Shown here: positions 7,990 through 15,951 of the stretch, in pieces
Layout: each line of letters opens with the position of its first letter
Position numbering within the stretch: the first letter of the stretch is position 1
Assembly (NCBI GenBank): GCA_021804355.1
Contig: JAJZHP010000012.1
Location: 1 to 36,310, forward strand
Direction: 5' to 3'
DNA from: Pseudomonadota bacterium
GTDB taxonomy: Bacteria; Pseudomonadota; Gammaproteobacteria; Pseudomonadales; Moraxellaceae
DNA: 36,310 nt
Program-made: the position numbers and the translations under genes
Notes under the pieces: generated by a model
What the model saw: the letters and a program-made list of their open reading frames with translations, nothing else
What the model was told of the DNA's origin: nothing
The model's database searches: none

Positions 7990-8235
7990 ATGCTCAGCCT
8001 GCTGTTTAAAGGTTTCATCCTGTGGATTATATGGCATATGCTGCGCGCCATGATGCGCCCATCTCCGCCTATCCCCAGCCAGCCCTATCAACCCGATCAC
8101 GCCTCACCTGATATACTCATGCAGCCCTGCCATATTTGCCATACCTATCTGCCTGTGACTAAATCTTTGCGTGATCAGCAGGGAAGATACTATTGTTGCG
8201 AGCTGCATCGCCAAGCTGGTGATTCAAAACCATGA
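7990..8235 (+). CDS. PP0621-type small protein with one membrane segment and a Cys/His zinc-binding motif
   Basis: An 81-residue protein. It starts with a hydrophobic segment (about residues 2-18), then a proline-rich linker, then CHICHTYLPV and a distal YYCCELH. The paired C-x2-C and CC-x2-H elements look like a small zinc ribbon. Its place immediately before pilS matches the PP0621 family found there in pseudomonads (family name from memory). The function is unknown. Its stop overlaps the pilS start (ATGA), so the two are translated together, hinting at a link to the PilSR sensor pathway or merely shared expression. The Shine-Dalgarno is weak. Confidence 0.75.
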   Translation: MLSLLFKGFILWIIWHMLRAMMRPSPPIPSQPYQPDHASPDILMQPCHICHTYLPVTKSLRDQQGRYYCCELHRQAGDSKP

Positions 8236-9833
8236 ACCCTGCTTTAGACTCAGATCGGCGATTACTGAAAATCTATGTTTGGTACCGATTGGGGCTGGCA
8301 GCTCTCCTTTTTTTGCTGCAACGGCTACATTTTCAAAACCCCGTTCTAGGACAAGAAGATCCTGCCGGATACATGCATCTGGCCCTCATTTATTTTCTGT
8401 TCAATGTGCTGTCCCTGGTCTTCAATCGCGATCGATGGGCATCGCCACCCGTGCGGGCAGTTGTCTTTATTTATGTTGATGTGATGATGCTCACCCTGCT
8501 TATTCATAAAAGCGGTGGTGTTACTTCTGACCTCCCCCTCCTGCTGGCTGTTGTCGTAGCCGCTGGCAATATCCTGCTTCGGGGTCGTTTAGGTTTATTA
8601 ATTTCAGCCGTAGCTACCTTGGCCTTGCTCTATGAGGAAGCGCTTCTTATCGATGAACAGGGATTATCCTGGCAGAGCTTAAACGCCACAGCATTTCTCT
8701 GTCTTAGTTTCTTTGGCATTGCTGTACTATCCCAGCAGCTAGCCCAGCGTTTGCGACAAAGTGAAGCGCTCACGGCCAGACAAGAACGCATGTTACTTGA
8801 AATGCACCGCATGAGCATGCAAATCATTCAACGCATGCGGACAGGCATTCTGGTTGTGGATGACGTTCCCAGAGTGGTTATGGCTAATGATGCCGCCAGG
8901 ATATTGTTAGGATTGACCCAACCCATGCTGCATCTCAGTCAGCTTGCTGAGCATTCACCGCCCTTGGCCAGTGCCCTTGAACGCTGGATACATTCTCCTC
9001 ACTTTCGACCTCGTCCATTTCAGAACCACTCCACCTCACCGGAGATCAGTGCCAGCTTTACCGTGCTGGACTCAGAACAAACTGATACCCCTTGGTCTAC
9101 CCTGATTTTTCTGGAAGACAATACACAATTGGCTCAGCAGGCCCAACAACTCAAACTGGCTTCACTAGGCCGCTTTACAGCCAGCATCGCTCATGAGATT
9201 CGCAACCCCATGGGCGCCATTAGCCATGCTTCTCAGCTACTGGCAGAGGCACCTGATATTCAGCAAGAGGATCAGCGACTTTTGCAAATCATTCAGCAAC
9301 ATTGTCGACGCATGAATGGCATCATTGAAAATGTCTTACAATTATCACGACGTGAGCGCCCGGTATCCCAGCTATTTGATCTTCTGCCTTGGCTGGACAA
9401 ATTCACCGAAGAGTTCAGCCAAGGCTATGGACAACAAGCCACGCTTGAGCGTCAGGATGAAAGCCCCACCCTCGTGGTTCGTTTTGATCCCGACCAACTA
9501 TTCCAGGTGCTACAAAACCTTGTCAGCAATGGCTTGCGCTATAGTCTTAAGCAAGGATCTTCTCGAGTAAAATTGCTGACTGGATTGCTGGATGCTGACC
9601 GCCCACATCTTGATATTATCGATGACGGACCGGGCCTCAGTCAGGACATCCGGCCTCATCTGTTTGAGCCATTTTTTACCACAGAAACCCAAGGCACAGG
9701 TTTAGGGCTTTATCTTTCACGGGAACTATGTGAGGCCAATCAGGCACGTCTAGACTATCTTTATCCTTTCGGGCCCGGAAGCTGTTTCCGGATTACATTT
9801 TCCCATCCAGACCGATATCCTCCCGTCTTATGA
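8232..9833 (+). CDS. pilS: PilS-type membrane sensor histidine kinase
   Basis: A 533-residue kinase. The first ~165 residues hold about six membrane segments with short loops, as in PilS. A coiled linker and a PAS-like segment (about 200-230, TGILVVDDVPRVVMANDAA) follow. The dimerisation domain has His321 in SIAHEIRNPMG as the phosphorylation site. The ATPase domain shows the N box LVSNGLRYS, G1 DDGPGLS and G2 GTGLGLYLSREL. In Pseudomonas, PilS senses pilin in the membrane and phosphorylates PilR to control pilin transcription. No pilin gene is in the window, so the target here is inferred. It is coupled by ATGA overlaps to the genes on both sides. Confidence 0.9.
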   Translation: MNPALDSDRRLLKIYVWYRLGLAALLFLLQRLHFQNPVLGQEDPAGYMHLALIYFLFNVLSLVFNRDRWASPPVRAVVFIYVDVMMLTLLIHKSGGVTSDLPLLLAVVVAAGNILLRGRLGLLISAVATLALLYEEALLIDEQGLSWQSLNATAFLCLSFFGIAVLSQQLAQRLRQSEALTARQERMLLEMHRMSMQIIQRMRTGILVVDDVPRVVMANDAARILLGLTQPMLHLSQLAEHSPPLASALERWIHSPHFRPRPFQNHSTSPEISASFTVLDSEQTDTPWSTLIFLEDNTQLAQQAQQLKLASLGRFTASIAHEIRNPMGAISHASQLLAEAPDIQQEDQRLLQIIQQHCRRMNGIIENVLQLSRRERPVSQLFDLLPWLDKFTEEFSQGYGQQATLERQDESPTLVVRFDPDQLFQVLQNLVSNGLRYSLKQGSSRVKLLTGLLDADRPHLDIIDDGPGLSQDIRPHLFEPFFTTETQGTGLGLYLSRELCEANQARLDYLYPFGPGSCFRITFSHPDRYPPVL

Positions 9834-11200
9834 AATCAGCGCTGGTCTTAATCGTCGATGACGAACCCGATATTTGTGAGCTTTTAGAAATCACACTGGG
9901 TCGTATGCATTTGGCTACACAAAGGGCTGACAGTGTGCAGGCAGCTTTGAAGTGCCTGGCTGCACAGACCTTTGACCTCGTGCTGACCGACATGCATCTG
10001 CCTGATGGGAATGGATTGCATCTGGTTCAGGAGGTTCAAACCCGTTGGCCTGCGACACCTGTCGCTGTCATTACCGCCTATGGCAGCATGGAGACTGCCA
10101 TCACGGCTTTGAAAGCTGGCGCTTTTGATTTCATTTCCAAACCCGTTGAACTCGAGCGCTTACGCGAACTTATCAAAAATGCCTTAAAACAACCGCCGCC
10201 ACCTGCACCCGATAATCAGGAACCCCTCTTAGGGAGTTCAAAATCAATATTACAATTGCGCGAAACCGTATCCAAGCTGGCCCGAGGCCAAGCACCTGTT
10301 TTTATCAGTGGGGAATCAGGTAGTGGTAAAGAGCTGGTAGCCCGACGCATTCATGAGTTGGGTGCTAGGTCCAGTCATCATTTCATCGCCGTAAACTGTG
10401 GAGCCATTCCCGCTGAACTGATGGAAAGTGAGTTCTTTGGCCATAAACGAGGAAGTTTCACCGGCGCGCAAGAAGATAAAATTGGATTGTTTCAGGCAGC
10501 CGACCAGGGAACACTTTTTTTAGATGAAGTCGCTGACCTCCCTCTAGCCATGCAGGTCAAACTGCTTCGTGCCCTGCAAGAGAAAGCCGTGCGACCCTTA
10601 GGTTCCACCAAGGAACTCCCCATCAACGTTCGCATCATTTCGGCCACGCACAAAGATCTGGCGCAAGAAGTTGCTGACGGTAACTTCCGGCAAGACCTGT
10701 TCTATCGCATTCATGTCATCCCCTTACGCGTTCCGTCATTGCGTGAACGTGGCGATGACATTATCCTCCTGGCGCAATCCTTCCTGCTACAGATCGCACG
10801 GGACTGGAATCAACCACCCTTAAAGCTGCACGAAGAGGCGTTGCAGCAACTGCGGCGTTACAGCTTCCCTGGCAATGTGCGCGAATTGCAAAACATTCTG
10901 GAGCGTGCGGTGACCCTGTGTGATGCGAATATCATCCGCCCAGAACATCTCCAACTGCCCTTAGCCACGGAAACAAGATCCTTGATGCCGACCACCGTGC
11001 ATGAGGTTCCTCATGGCGCTGCCTTGGAGGACTACCTGCTCGAGATCGAAAGAAAGGCCATACTCAATGCGCTGGAGGAGACACGATGGAACCGTACGCT
11101 GGCAGCTCGAAAATTGGGGATGACTTTCCGCTCCTTACGTTATCGACTTAAAAAAATGGGACTAGATAACGAAGATGACAATGATAGCCCTGCTTCATGA
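9830..11200 (+). CDS. pilR: PilR-type sigma-54-dependent response regulator
   Basis: A 456-residue NtrC-family activator. The receiver domain has Asp10/Asp11 and the phosphoacceptor Asp54 (VLTDMHLPDG). The AAA+ domain carries Walker A GESGSGKE near residue 161, a sigma-54 contact loop GSFTGA near residue 208 (the second position is Ser rather than the Ala of NtrC, a common variant) and Walker B TLFLDEVADL. A Fis-type helix-turn-helix ends the protein (ARKLGMTFRSLRYRLKKMGL). It should activate RpoN promoters when phosphorylated by the upstream PilS. The pilS and pilR reading frames overlap by four bases. Its stop codon overlaps the stop of thiO on the other strand within TCATGA. Confidence 0.92.
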   Translation: MKSALVLIVDDEPDICELLEITLGRMHLATQRADSVQAALKCLAAQTFDLVLTDMHLPDGNGLHLVQEVQTRWPATPVAVITAYGSMETAITALKAGAFDFISKPVELERLRELIKNALKQPPPPAPDNQEPLLGSSKSILQLRETVSKLARGQAPVFISGESGSGKELVARRIHELGARSSHHFIAVNCGAIPAELMESEFFGHKRGSFTGAQEDKIGLFQAADQGTLFLDEVADLPLAMQVKLLRALQEKAVRPLGSTKELPINVRIISATHKDLAQEVADGNFRQDLFYRIHVIPLRVPSLRERGDDIILLAQSFLLQIARDWNQPPLKLHEEALQQLRRYSFPGNVRELQNILERAVTLCDANIIRPEHLQLPLATETRSLMPTTVHEVPHGAALEDYLLEIERKAILNALEETRWNRTLAARKLGMTFRSLRYRLKKMGLDNEDDNDSPAS

Positions 11201-12301: not shown

Positions 12302-13171
12302 TCAAATGGGTACGCTGGGTTTGACATAAAACACTTCCGTATAAGGCCCGGGGTTTTGCCCATTATCGAACACAGGCACGGTCATCTCCATCAAAAATCC
12401 GGTGGTATTCGATGCATTGCCTGGGTCTGATTCGCTCTGATAGGTGGAGGGTGTAATCGTCATGCTGACATTGAGATTATTTTGACTATCCACCGTGACC
12501 TTGTTGACCGTCACCCCGATACTGCTCAAGGCACTCAGATTTTTTCGAATCCAGGTAAAATTGGACGCGATAAATGGGCTTGTTGTCGATGAGGGGAAAT
12601 ACGATACGTTAAGCCGTGGAGGAATAATAACGGTAGCCGTGACCGGGCTCGTAGACCCTGTTGTATGATTTGGGTCAGGAAAAGATACTTCCGTGGGCGC
12701 CGTCAGGGGCACTGTCACACCCGCTGAAGAACTGGCTTGTCCGGCCGGATAAACCAAAACTTCAAACAAATTGCCTGTGCCCGCACTGCTGCCATTGACC
12801 GCATTAATGCCGAGACGGTAAATACCGGGAATCTGACCTGGCGGCACCGTGACACTCACTTGACCGGTAGCACTCACCATAGTCTGCAAGCCATCCGGAT
12901 TACCTCCCGACCCTGATGGCAAAAAGATATTGGTGGCTGGGCTGTAATGGGCATAGCCTATAGCCGAGCTGGAAGCTGCACCTGCTGCAGGGGCATCGAC
13001 ACTGATTTCTAGCCCAAGAGAGGAAGTGGCTGTGTTTAATACCGGAGCCGGTAAGGGTGCCGAAGCACTACCCCCGCCTCCGCCACCACAGCCAGCGAGC
13101 AACGCGACCATCATCACGCCCAGCCCCATCTTCATGGGCCTACTTACAACATAACGCCTATGCTGCCCCAT
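12302..13171 (-). CDS. Unknown lipoprotein with a polyglycine stretch after the lipobox
   Basis: A 289-residue protein that I do not recognise. I place the start at the ATG at 13171 (MGQHRRYVV) because GGGAGG lies five bases before it; an ATG nine codons earlier has no suitable site. The signal peptide ends in VALLAGC with lipidated Cys28, then six glycines as a flexible tether. The mature part is rich in Ser, Thr, Pro, Val and Gly with few charges, suggesting a beta-rich extracytoplasmic protein; the stretch TGQVSVTVPPGQIPGIYRLGINAVNG looks like a strand of an immunoglobulin-like or carbohydrate-binding fold, but that is inference. It lies just upstream of thiO and may share its transcript. 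In pseudomonads this side of thiO holds minor pilin genes; none is seen here. Confidence 0.75.
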   Translation of the reverse strand: MGQHRRYVVSRPMKMGLGVMMVALLAGCGGGGGGSASAPLPAPVLNTATSSLGLEISVDAPAAGAASSSAIGYAHYSPATNIFLPSGSGGNPDGLQTMVSATGQVSVTVPPGQIPGIYRLGINAVNGSSAGTGNLFEVLVYPAGQASSSAGVTVPLTAPTEVSFPDPNHTTGSTSPVTATVIIPPRLNVSYFPSSTTSPFIASNFTWIRKNLSALSSIGVTVNKVTVDSQNNLNVSMTITPSTYQSESDPGNASNTTGFLMEMTVPVFDNGQNPGPYTEVFYVKPSVPI

Positions 13172-13346
13172 CACAACCTCCCAGACCTGATCATCCATCC
13201 ACCTAGGCTGAGTATGCCTGCAACTTAGGTATCAGGGAAACCATTTTACTGACCGCTAAGGCATGAGCACGGTGCGTTACGGTCATTACACCCTGAACTA
13301 TTCTGCGCCACACTGAAGGCGGATCACTCACCGGGGGTTATAACTC

Positions 13347-14648
13347 ATGGGAAACCGCTTGCAAGGATGGGGACTGGAGGTGCTGAGTCGCATTGCTGGA
13401 GCTGACTGGCCCGATCGTTTGGGTTTAAGGCGTCCTATGGAAAAAGCCTTGTACCAGGGTAGCCGACAGGGCTTTCACTGGGCCAGCGCAGCAGCCAAAC
13501 GCTTTACCTCTCGCCAAGGCCCAAGAAACCGGCTGAATACAGCCTCCGCTTCCGGTTTATTTGACCTTAGTCTCAGCGATGAACAGCAACAGATGTGTGA
13601 CAGTCTGGGGCGTTTTGCTCGCGAGTGGTTATATCCTCAGGCCCATGATGCCGATGCCCAGGCAGCCCTGCCTGCAGACCTGTTAGCCGCTAGTCAAGAA
13701 CTTGGACTAGCCCTTTACGCCGTCAGCGAGGCTCATGGCGGCATGGCCACTGAAAACTCCACCGTGACCCAGACACTCATCGCTGAGACCCTGGCTCAGG
13801 GGGATTACAGCCTTGCTGTTGCCTTGTTATCGACCATTTCCGTGGCCAACGCTATAACACGTTGGGGCAGCGGCCCTCAGCAAGCCAGTTACTTGCCGGC
13901 ATTCCTTGATGACAACAAGCCATTACGCGCCTGTATGGCGGTTATGGAGCCTGAAGCCTTATTCAATCCCATGCACTTGGCCACTACGGCTGTACGCCAA
14001 GGACAGGGCTATGTGCTCAATGGTCATAAATCCATGGTCTTGGGGGCGGCCGAAGCTGATTTAATGCTGGTCGCCGCCCACACGGAAAGCGGTCCTGCCG
14101 TTTTTATCGTCGAATGCCAGCAACAAGGACTAGGCTGGCGCGAAGCCCCCGCCATGGGATTACGAGCTGCAGCAACTGCTGACGTGGTTCTCGATCATGT
14201 CCATGTAAACCTTGAAGCCAAGTTAGGTGACGCAGATTTCGATTACAGCACATTTCTGGATTATGGCAGCTTGGGCTGGTGTGCCATGGCCACAGGCTGC
14301 TGCCAGGCTGTACTCGACTATGTCATTCCCTACTGCAATGAACGTGAAGCCTTTGGCGAGCCTATCAGCCACCGACAAGGCGTTGCCTTCATGATCGCCA
14401 ATATGGCGGTAGAACTGGAATCCATGCGTATCATGACCTGGCGTGCAGCGGCCCGCGCCGAACAAGGGCTGGACTTCCATCGAGAGGCCTACCTTGCCAG
14501 ATTGCTTTGCACAGAAAAAGCCATGCAAATAGGAACCGATGGCGTCCAACTGCTGGGTGGGCATGGATTCACCAAGGAACACCCCGTCGAGCGTTGGTAC
14601 CGCGACTTGCGAGCCACGGGCCTGATGTGGGGCGGATTGCATCTCTGA
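13347..14648 (+). CDS. Acyl-CoA dehydrogenase-like subunit lacking the usual catalytic glutamate
   Basis: A 433-residue acyl-CoA dehydrogenase fold. About 65 residues of basic and amphipathic N-terminal extension precede the all-alpha domain (LSDEQQQMCDSLGRFAREWL). The central beta part includes QGYVLNGHKSMVLGAAEADL, and the C-terminal helices include QLLGGHGFTKEHPVERWYRDLRA in two adjoining pieces. At the place where the downstream paralogue has F-E-G-T with catalytic Glu377, this protein has M-W-G-G, so Trp428 replaces the base, and the chain stops five residues later. It therefore may be inactive alone, or use a base elsewhere as isovaleryl-CoA dehydrogenase does. It lies 22 bases before the second dehydrogenase, suggesting one complex. 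A G-rich ribosome site precedes the ATG. Confidence 0.85.
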   Translation: MGNRLQGWGLEVLSRIAGADWPDRLGLRRPMEKALYQGSRQGFHWASAAAKRFTSRQGPRNRLNTASASGLFDLSLSDEQQQMCDSLGRFAREWLYPQAHDADAQAALPADLLAASQELGLALYAVSEAHGGMATENSTVTQTLIAETLAQGDYSLAVALLSTISVANAITRWGSGPQQASYLPAFLDDNKPLRACMAVMEPEALFNPMHLATTAVRQGQGYVLNGHKSMVLGAAEADLMLVAAHTESGPAVFIVECQQQGLGWREAPAMGLRAAATADVVLDHVHVNLEAKLGDADFDYSTFLDYGSLGWCAMATGCCQAVLDYVIPYCNEREAFGEPISHRQGVAFMIANMAVELESMRIMTWRAAARAEQGLDFHREAYLARLLCTEKAMQIGTDGVQLLGGHGFTKEHPVERWYRDLRATGLMWGGLHL

Positions 14649-14670
14649 TGCGGCTGAACGAGGACAGAAC

Positions 14671-15873
14671 ATGTACTTAGAAACTCCGAAGAAGTTCAAA
14701 ACTCTGGTGGCGCAGGCTGAGGATGTGGCCAATAATTTTTTTCGGCCTATCTCGCGTAAATATGATAAAGCTGAACATGCCTATCCTAAAGAATTGGATA
14801 TGCTGGCCGCCCTCCTGGATGGCATGAATGATGGGGCCCCGGAAGCTGCAGGGGCTTCAACCGCAGGAAAGCGCTCCCCTCAGGAACAAGGTGGGGTAAG
14901 AAATGGCAGCAACCTGTCTACCTGCTTAGGTATCATGGAACTGTGCCGGGGTGATGTCGGCCTGCTGCTGGCCATGCCACGCCAGGGTTTAGGCAACTCC
15001 GCTATCGCTGCCGTTGCCAATGAAGAACAGCTAAACAGATTCAAGGGTACCTGGGCGGCCATGGCCATCACGGAGCCTGGCTGTGGCTCTGATTCAGCTG
15101 CGATTAGAACCACTGCCCGCGCTGAGGGTGATGATTATGTACTCAATGGTGAAAAGATCTATGTCACTTCAGGAGCCAGAGCTGATAGCGTTGTCGTCTG
15201 GGCCACCCTGGACCGTCAGCTAGGTCGTGCTGCTATCAAGTCCTTTGTGGTTCCCAAGGGCACCCCTGGCATGACCGTGTCACGACTGGAAAAAAAGCTG
15301 GGCATTAAGGCGTCTGATACAGCAGCCATCAATTTTACCGAATGCCGTATCCCTAAGGCCAATCTGTTGGGCAATCCTGAAATTGACGTTAAAAAAGGAT
15401 TTGCTGGCGTGATGGAGACCTTTGATAACACACGCCCCCTCGTGGCTGCCATGGCGGTTGGAGTTGCCAAAGCCTCACTGGACAGAACGCGTGAGCTACT
15501 GGTTGGCAAGATTCGCGGGGATTACAGCGCACCACCGCTGAACTTAGGGATGGCAGAAGCCACCCTTTACCGACTGGAAGCTGAGTGGGAAGCCGCACGT
15601 TTGTTAACGCTCAAAGCGGCATGGATGGCGGATAACCGTCAGCCTAATTCACGTGAAGCCTCTATCGCCAAAGCTAAAGCAGGACGCAGTGCTAATGAAA
15701 TTACGCTGAAATGTGTCGAGTTAACAGGATCCTTGGGATACGGAGAAGATGAGCTGCTTGAAAAATGGGCACGTGACTCCAAAATTCTCGATATCTTTGA
15801 AGGCACACAACAAATTCAACTATTGATAGTTGCGCGGCGATTATTAGGCAAATCATCGGGAGAACTTAAATAG
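14671..15873 (+). CDS. Acyl-CoA dehydrogenase (catalytic subunit of a pair)
   Basis: A 400-residue flavoenzyme that introduces the alpha-beta double bond into acyl-CoA in beta-oxidation, passing electrons to ETF (family knowledge). Seen motifs are AITEPGCGSDSAAIRTTA, which contacts FAD and substrate, YVLNGEKIYVTSGARAD, GSLGYGEDELLEKWARDSK, and FEGTQQIQ with Glu377 at the classical catalytic base position. The short N-terminal domain MYLETPKKFKTLVAQAEDVA differs from the usual opening. The substrate chain length cannot be read from sequence. It shares a transcript with the preceding dehydrogenase-like gene (22-base gap, GAGGA ribosome site) and ends at a strong terminator. Confidence 0.92.
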   Translation: MYLETPKKFKTLVAQAEDVANNFFRPISRKYDKAEHAYPKELDMLAALLDGMNDGAPEAAGASTAGKRSPQEQGGVRNGSNLSTCLGIMELCRGDVGLLLAMPRQGLGNSAIAAVANEEQLNRFKGTWAAMAITEPGCGSDSAAIRTTARAEGDDYVLNGEKIYVTSGARADSVVVWATLDRQLGRAAIKSFVVPKGTPGMTVSRLEKKLGIKASDTAAINFTECRIPKANLLGNPEIDVKKGFAGVMETFDNTRPLVAAMAVGVAKASLDRTRELLVGKIRGDYSAPPLNLGMAEATLYRLEAEWEAARLLTLKAAWMADNRQPNSREASIAKAKAGRSANEITLKCVELTGSLGYGEDELLEKWARDSKILDIFEGTQQIQLLIVARRLLGKSSGELK

Positions 15874-15923: not shown

Positions 15924-15951
15924 AAACCTGCCCGCCCAGGCAGGTTTTTTT
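15924..15951 (+). terminator. Intrinsic terminator after the acyl-CoA dehydrogenase pair
   Basis: Arms AAACCTGCC (15924-15932) and GGCAGGTTT (15939-15947) pair perfectly over nine bases with a six-base loop, and the T-run reaches 15951. This is a textbook Rho-independent terminator for the plus-strand operon. Its last T is part of the stop codon of the converging AraC-type gene, so the two transcripts meet exactly here. Confidence 0.92.

Follow-up and report, generated by a model that had tools for sequence, protein, structure and literature searches.

Adjacent, unequal acyl-CoA dehydrogenase genes of a Moraxellaceae bacterium probably encode the two subunits of one heteromeric enzyme

Do two neighboring genes, both recognizable as acyl-CoA dehydrogenase (ACAD) genes and only one of them with the catalytic glutamate, encode two enzymes or one? 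The question is raised by a 36,310-nucleotide stretch of DNA from a Pseudomonadota bacterium of the family Moraxellaceae (assembly GCA_021804355.1, contig JAJZHP010000012.1), referred to here as the window. The first gene (13347..14648, + strand) encodes a 433-residue protein with the ACAD fold, which we call alpha, with Trp428 (codon 14628..14630, + strand) in the place of the catalytic Glu. The second (14671..15873, + strand) follows after 22 bases and encodes a 400-residue ACAD, beta, with Glu377 (codon 15799..15801, + strand) as the predicted catalytic base. The initial annotation had proposed a heteromer or, alternatively, a first protein that anchors or regulates the second. Heteromeric ACADs with one flavin adenine dinucleotide (FAD) and one Glu per dimer are described as established (PMC8399759). 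The split arrangement is known from other bacteria, and the present branch is little studied. We suggest that alpha and beta very probably form one obligate heteromeric ACAD, probably alpha2-beta2; the idea of a heteromer is well supported by complementary FAD residues, strict pairing, and gene order.

Complementary FAD residues in alpha and beta

In human short-chain acyl-CoA dehydrogenase (SCAD), FAD is described as contacted by F152, L154, S155, G160, S161, T187, and E396, and also T364, of its own monomer and by R297, Q365, and G369 of the adjacent monomer, with E392 as the base; the Q365H substitution blocked tetramer formation (PMC13027082). FAD binding is also described as using both subunits in methylsuccinyl-CoA dehydrogenase (PMC5798300). 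These SCAD positions were mapped via rat SCAD (offset 24, T364 left unmapped) onto 40 alphas, 41 betas, three alphas and three betas of a second pair type, and seven ordinary ACADs, six of them from the window's genome. We chose which residues to allow at each position, with wide limits at F152, L154, and E396 (E or Q). The mapping omitted the window-protein copies in L006, as well as L007 and the minus-strand ACAD of L069.

The neighbor-side residues R297, Q365, and G369 are each kept in 40/40 alphas, whereas they are gone from nearly all betas (1/41, 0/41, and 2/41, respectively). On the own side, all seven mapped positions are kept in 41/41 betas. The alphas retain S155 in 6/40, G160 and S161 in 2/40 each, T187 in 0/40, and E396 in 1/40; the hydrophobic positions, at which several residues were accepted, are kept in 39/40 (F152) and 35/40 (L154). 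Among the substrate and base residues, Arg272, Asp269, and Glu are found in 41/41, 40/41, and 40/41 betas and in 10/40, 33/40, and 8/40 alphas. Glu377 of the window beta lies within DIFEGTQQIQ, that is, at the SCAD position. The ordinary ACADs keep the own side in 7/7 and R, Q, and G in 6/7 each, with the Glu at the isovaleryl-CoA dehydrogenase-type position in six and at the SCAD position in one. Neither alpha nor beta, then, carries both sets of FAD residues in one chain, as a homo-oligomer would.

Because the losses are complementary, an alpha-beta dimer would give one complete FAD site, and alpha-alpha or beta-beta dimers would give none. This pattern, which is the strongest evidence that we have, is most simply explained by a heteromer that is obligate and has a single functional FAD site in each alpha-beta dimer. 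In such an enzyme, the acyl-CoA pocket, the base (Glu377), and the flavin-ring part of the FAD site would come from beta, and alpha would contribute an Arg, a Gln, and a Gly that reach over the interface to hold beta's FAD at its other end. The reverse site would be dead, leaving one FAD and one active site per alpha-beta dimer. We infer both the assembly and activity of this enzyme and the presence of two such dimers in it.

Truncation of alpha and its pairing with beta

A gap-free alignment places Trp428 of alpha at Glu368 of rat SCAD (1jqi), the residue before Gly369, which bears out the annotated correspondence of Trp428 to Glu377 of beta. The annotated early stop is confirmed as well, as the chain ends five residues later, in GGLHL. 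Correspondingly, the match of alpha to the C-terminal Pfam domain ends at profile position 134/150, while that of beta reaches 150/150. The tail after the Glu position is exactly five residues long in 40/40 alphas and exactly 23 in 41/41 betas. Given this constancy, we reject a frameshift or a sequencing error as the origin of the alpha C-terminus; no EGTxxIQ was seen by eye in another frame of the DNA between the alpha stop and the beta start, so there is no hidden continuation there. The residue at the Glu position itself varies among the 40 alphas (H in 16, E in 8, Q in 6, W in 4, D in 2, and F, S, C, and P in one each). It is W, H, or Q in the window's family, H in Acinetobacter baumannii, and E in three actinobacterial alphas. 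The loss of the catalytic Glu noted at first thus holds for the window alpha but not as a general rule, as eight of the 40 alphas keep the Glu and two have Asp. The missing Glu is a variable trait of alpha, and the truncation and one-sided FAD residues are its stable traits. An alternative catalytic Glu at the isovaleryl-type position, which the initial annotation had named as counting against its reading, is rejected, since this position holds no Glu in any of the 40 alphas (G in 21, S in 13, A in 4, C and L in one each; Gly in the window alpha).

Does alpha ever occur without beta? Among 30 kept loci in a scan of relatives, 29 hold an alpha, each with a same-strand beta directly downstream, and the remaining one (L038) holds an ordinary ACAD. 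Of 369 evenly drawn gammaproteobacterial genomes, eight gave an alpha (E 1.2e-96 or better; next match 1e-49) and the identical eight a beta (E 2.7e-142 or better). The next match for beta, at 6e-75, belongs to the second pair type, found in three of those eight genomes. The co-occurrence is therefore strict, and no lone alpha was found among the 29 alphas of the relatives or the eight of the class. The genes are adjacent in seven of the eight genomes; in G094, the two lie at different contig ends, alpha stopping about 20 bases short of one and beta starting about 150 bases from the other. In a plasmid collection, the six beta records are also the six best alpha records. The window pair thus has the arrangement expected of an alpha2-beta2 ACAD, adjacent ACAD genes of which only one encodes the catalytic Glu; elsewhere, eight alphas have a Glu and one beta (L069) has none.

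The second pair type is a divergent dead/catalytic ACAD pair in G066, G194, and G306 (L107, L109 on the minus strand, and L108). Its alphas keep R, Q, and G in 3/3 and have lost the Glu, G160, and T187 in 3/3, with S155 and E396 kept in 2/3. Its betas keep the own side and the Glu in 3/3 and have lost R and G in 3/3, with Q kept in 2/3. At L109, the second-type pair adjoins a main-type pair on the opposite strand. In G066 (L110, minus strand), one alpha is followed by two tandem betas.

The main pair is present in 25 of 37 genomes of the window's family, several of which are drafts, and the C-terminal domain of the Escherichia coli-type FadE is present in 11 (8 genomes have both, 17 only the pair, 3 only FadE, and 9 neither); neither was found in the sole other member of the window's genus, an assembly of 86% completeness. 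The A. baumannii beta nests within the tree of this family (Shimodaira-Hasegawa-like approximate likelihood-ratio support 97-99, quick tree). A further search gave seven loci, five of which hold an alpha with 44-55% identity (Tamilnaduibacter, Oleispira, an Alcanivoracaceae metagenome-assembled genome, Alloalcanivorax, and Algiphilus) and two of which hold distant ACADs with 24-25% identity. These five host groups are mostly hydrocarbon degraders.

What is the N-terminal extension of alpha? It comprises 71 codons before the FDLS motif (13347..13559, + strand), with a net charge of +8 vs -21 for the remaining protein. The description of a basic, amphipathic extension of about 65 residues thus holds for the charge; the amphipathicity is moderate (maximum 18-residue Eisenberg moment 0.55), and, counted by length, the extension is absent in nine of the 40 alphas (L041, L042, L067, L068, L069, L109, L110, L111, and L115). 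In profile searches, it is recognizable from the window's family through to Nocardia, and in 19 genomes, all nine matches at E below 1e-18 are alphas. A known domain was considered and rejected, as there is no Pfam or NCBIfam match over the extension and its profile is strong only on alphas. An AlphaFold model of alpha built from six sequences has the ACAD fold (mean predicted local distance difference test score, pLDDT, 79.4; predicted template modeling score 0.78). Its best Foldseek match is 2dvl, with a template modeling score of 0.73 by query length, followed by chains of SCAD and medium-chain acyl-CoA dehydrogenase (MCAD). The extension is modeled, with low confidence, mainly as two long helices (3-17 and 28-56).

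Elsewhere in the window, a terminator-like stem-loop followed by Ts lies 3' of beta (15924..15947, + strand); it is a pattern match only, and five such patterns were found in the stretch vs 2.9 expected. Divergent from alpha is a gene for a 298-residue protein (12302-13198, - strand) that has no Pfam match and, close to the N-terminus, a lipoprotein-like stretch. Genes for a sensor kinase and a sigma-54-type response regulator overlap by four bases at 8232-11200, with a gene for a ThiO-like oxidase beside them on the other strand. At the most divergent locus of the collection (L069:4674-13991), the pair is flanked on both sides by proteins of about 800 residues, each with two family III CoA-transferase stretches (PF02515).

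Mycobacterial relatives and the likely reaction

The pair is not restricted to gammaproteobacteria. Both chains match pairs of Nocardia farcinica, Rhodococcus sp. DN22, and Tsukamurella over nearly the whole length, with 60-62% identity to the window for beta and 46-51% for alpha (46-47% for the Rhodococcus and Tsukamurella alphas). The gene hisN lies directly upstream of the pair in Tsukamurella and is separated from it by two other genes in Rhodococcus; the Nocardia record comes without a gene table. The Tsukamurella order, smpB, ftsX, ftsE, prfB, hisN, alpha, beta, agrees with what we take to be the Mycobacterium tuberculosis region that holds fadE24-fadE23. By this comparison, mycobacterial FadE24-FadE23 is the most likely ortholog of the window pair. 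Rv3139 is named as fadE24 and Rv3140 as fadE23 (PMC6429209). FadE24-FadE23 is described as a complex controlled by SigE and involved in fatty acid recycling (PMC11980559), and mycolic acid recycling is also mentioned (PMC4334782). The Rhodococcus sp. DN22 pair is located on plasmid p5 (38.5 kb; L122), together with hisN and genes for a cytochrome P450 and a propionyl-CoA synthetase; the plasmid location suggests mobility.

The reaction, which would open the degradation of a fatty acid, is likely the alpha,beta-dehydrogenation of a fatty acyl-CoA, judging from the lifestyle of the hosts, the mycobacterial literature, and the gene for an AMP-binding enzyme (PF00501) that adjoins the pair in two of the five named hosts, Oleispira and Algiphilus. 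We infer that the most likely substrate is a fatty acyl-CoA of medium to long chain, which may derive from alkanes. Conserved neighbors were considered as a clue to the substrate and rejected: the commonest ones besides alpha and beta, purL (10/34 loci) and an AraC-type regulator (9/34), are probably shared surroundings. The clustering of neighbors at these 34 loci missed the beta of L059 and the whole pair of L057, owing to a longer overlapping open reading frame, and a separate search found them. A literature search found no paper characterizing the acdA-acdB pair of Acinetobacter; acdA/acdB of strain ADP1 (ACIAD0623/0624), which may be this pair, appear in a proteomics table (PMC6971185). 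An Alcanivorax proteomics paper was set aside, as it could not be linked to these genes (PMC6850023).

Alternatives and known systems

Several points weigh against a heteromeric fatty acyl-CoA dehydrogenase. An ordinary ACAD of the window's genome, L008, lacks all three neighbor-side residues, and therefore such a loss alone is no proof of a heteromer. In L069, the most divergent pair, the Glu position is taken by Gly in beta and by Asp in alpha. The AlphaFold model of beta, with a pLDDT of 47.6, was discarded, and the assembly, flavin content, and activity of alpha with beta are predictions from the residue pattern. The orthology rests on the Rhodococcus, Tsukamurella, and Nocardia pairs and on gene order, not on M. 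tuberculosis sequences. As regards the reaction, the usual electron acceptor of ACADs is the electron-transferring flavoprotein (ETF), and the draft genome of the window gave no match to ETF (PF00766, PF01012), although the ACAD C-terminal domain was matched 14 times. ETF is present in 18/18 other relatives searched and is split over contig ends in the sister genome, so its absence here is likely due to a gap in the assembly. Finally, the FadE24-FadE23 complex is said to have an activity other than dehydrogenation, and possible ATP binding is mentioned for it (PMC12323669).

Could beta be an active homo-oligomeric dehydrogenase, with alpha as an accessory, either membrane tether or regulator, that acts through its basic extension? 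The extension is indeed basic, helical in the low-confidence model, and recognizable as far as Nocardia. Furthermore, beta is more conserved than alpha in L010-L034 (72-85% vs 48-67% identity to the window), and L008 is an example of an ordinary ACAD without the neighbor-side residues. Against this, those residues are gone from nearly all betas and are kept in every alpha, including the nine alphas without the extension. Thus, the anchor or regulator considered in the initial annotation is the weaker alternative, and we regard it as improbable, since beta has lost the residues needed to hold FAD as a homodimer.

Is the pair, instead, an enzyme of the ChsE/Scd/IpdE type, acting on steroid or polycyclic acyl-CoAs? 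The heteromeric ACADs of steroid degradation are described as having one Glu and one FAD per heterodimer, with the FAD at the dimer interface (PMC8399759), and PimCD-like pairs have been suggested to be similar to them (PMC12543098). For comparison, an IpdE2 model gave six steroid-like loci (L116-L121) in 4/249 genomes, all below the curated cut-off. Their FAD pattern is similarly complementary: the dead chains keep R and Q in 6/6 and G in 3/6 (A in 3/6), and the catalytic chains keep S155, G160, S161, T187 (as S or T), and E396 in 6/6 and R in 0/6. However, the steroid-like catalytic chains have their Glu at the isovaleryl-type position in 6/6, whereas the betas have Thr there in 41/41 and the Glu at the SCAD position in 40/41. 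The window's genome has no match to the IpdE2 model at E up to 1e-40, in a search that covered this model and not other steroid genes.

The tree also separates the two kinds of pair. A careful tree of 71 rows was built with 16/40 alphas and 16/41 betas; C_L008, a long branch, and the non-ACAD rows D_L081, D_L085, D_L086, and D_L092 were omitted. The chains of each heteromer kind group together with support. The betas of the main and second types are joined at 100/99, and the alphas of the two types at 93/93, a value below the mark used for starred nodes. A supported split (99/94) divides the steroid-like chains from the alpha and beta types, which together make up one side of a branch, weakly (53/91). 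In topology tests, the placement of all heteromers in a single clade is rejected (approximately unbiased test, p 0.008), and a clade of beta with the steroid-like catalytic chains is marginally rejected (p 0.028), while a clade of alpha with the steroid-like dead chains is not (p 0.077). As the groups were chosen with a first tree in view, the p values err on the optimistic side. The FadE28-FadE29 type, offered as the model in the initial annotation, is thus not the closest kin, and we consider a steroid-type enzyme very unlikely.

That alpha is a decaying duplicate beside a good dehydrogenase gene, as the lost Glu and C-terminal tail of the window alpha might suggest, is hardly credible, given that 40/40 alphas from many genera share the truncation and keep R, Q, and G, and that the class scan has no beta without alpha (8/369 with both, at the cut-offs used).

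We return, then, to one enzyme made of alpha and beta. Tentatively, we propose that these pairs, including the type of L107, L108, and L109, are a second, independently evolved lineage with a split FAD site, common to gammaproteobacteria and actinobacteria, which may use the SCAD-type Glu and be specialized for fatty or hydrocarbon-derived acyl-CoAs, not for steroids, and which may be the long-chain enzyme of Moraxellaceae where the E. coli-type FadE is absent. The half-site ACADs described in the literature cited here are mainly tied to steroid breakdown. The same design with another Glu position in hydrocarbon degraders and relatives of Acinetobacter suggests a repeated origin and a wider use. 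In practice, a single enzyme may hide behind two genes that annotation lists as separate acyl-CoA dehydrogenases, which matters for counting, knockout, and expression. The variable Glu of alpha, set against its constant truncation and helper residues, offers a clear, testable case of the retention of a dead subunit.

How does the pair compare with known systems? FadE24-FadE23 has the same gene order, alpha and then beta; the three actinobacterial alphas of this type that were compared have Glu at the catalytic position, vs Trp in the window alpha. ChsE4-ChsE5, ChsE1-ChsE2 (FadE28-FadE29), Scd1AB, IpdE1-IpdE2, and the PimCD-like pairs share with the window pair one Glu-bearing subunit per dimer but differ in the position of the Glu, in their place in the tree, and in their steroid or dicarboxylate substrates. 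The homotetrameric SCAD and MCAD share the fold with alpha and the Glu position with beta. Unlike either alpha or beta, SCAD has both halves of the FAD contacts in every subunit.

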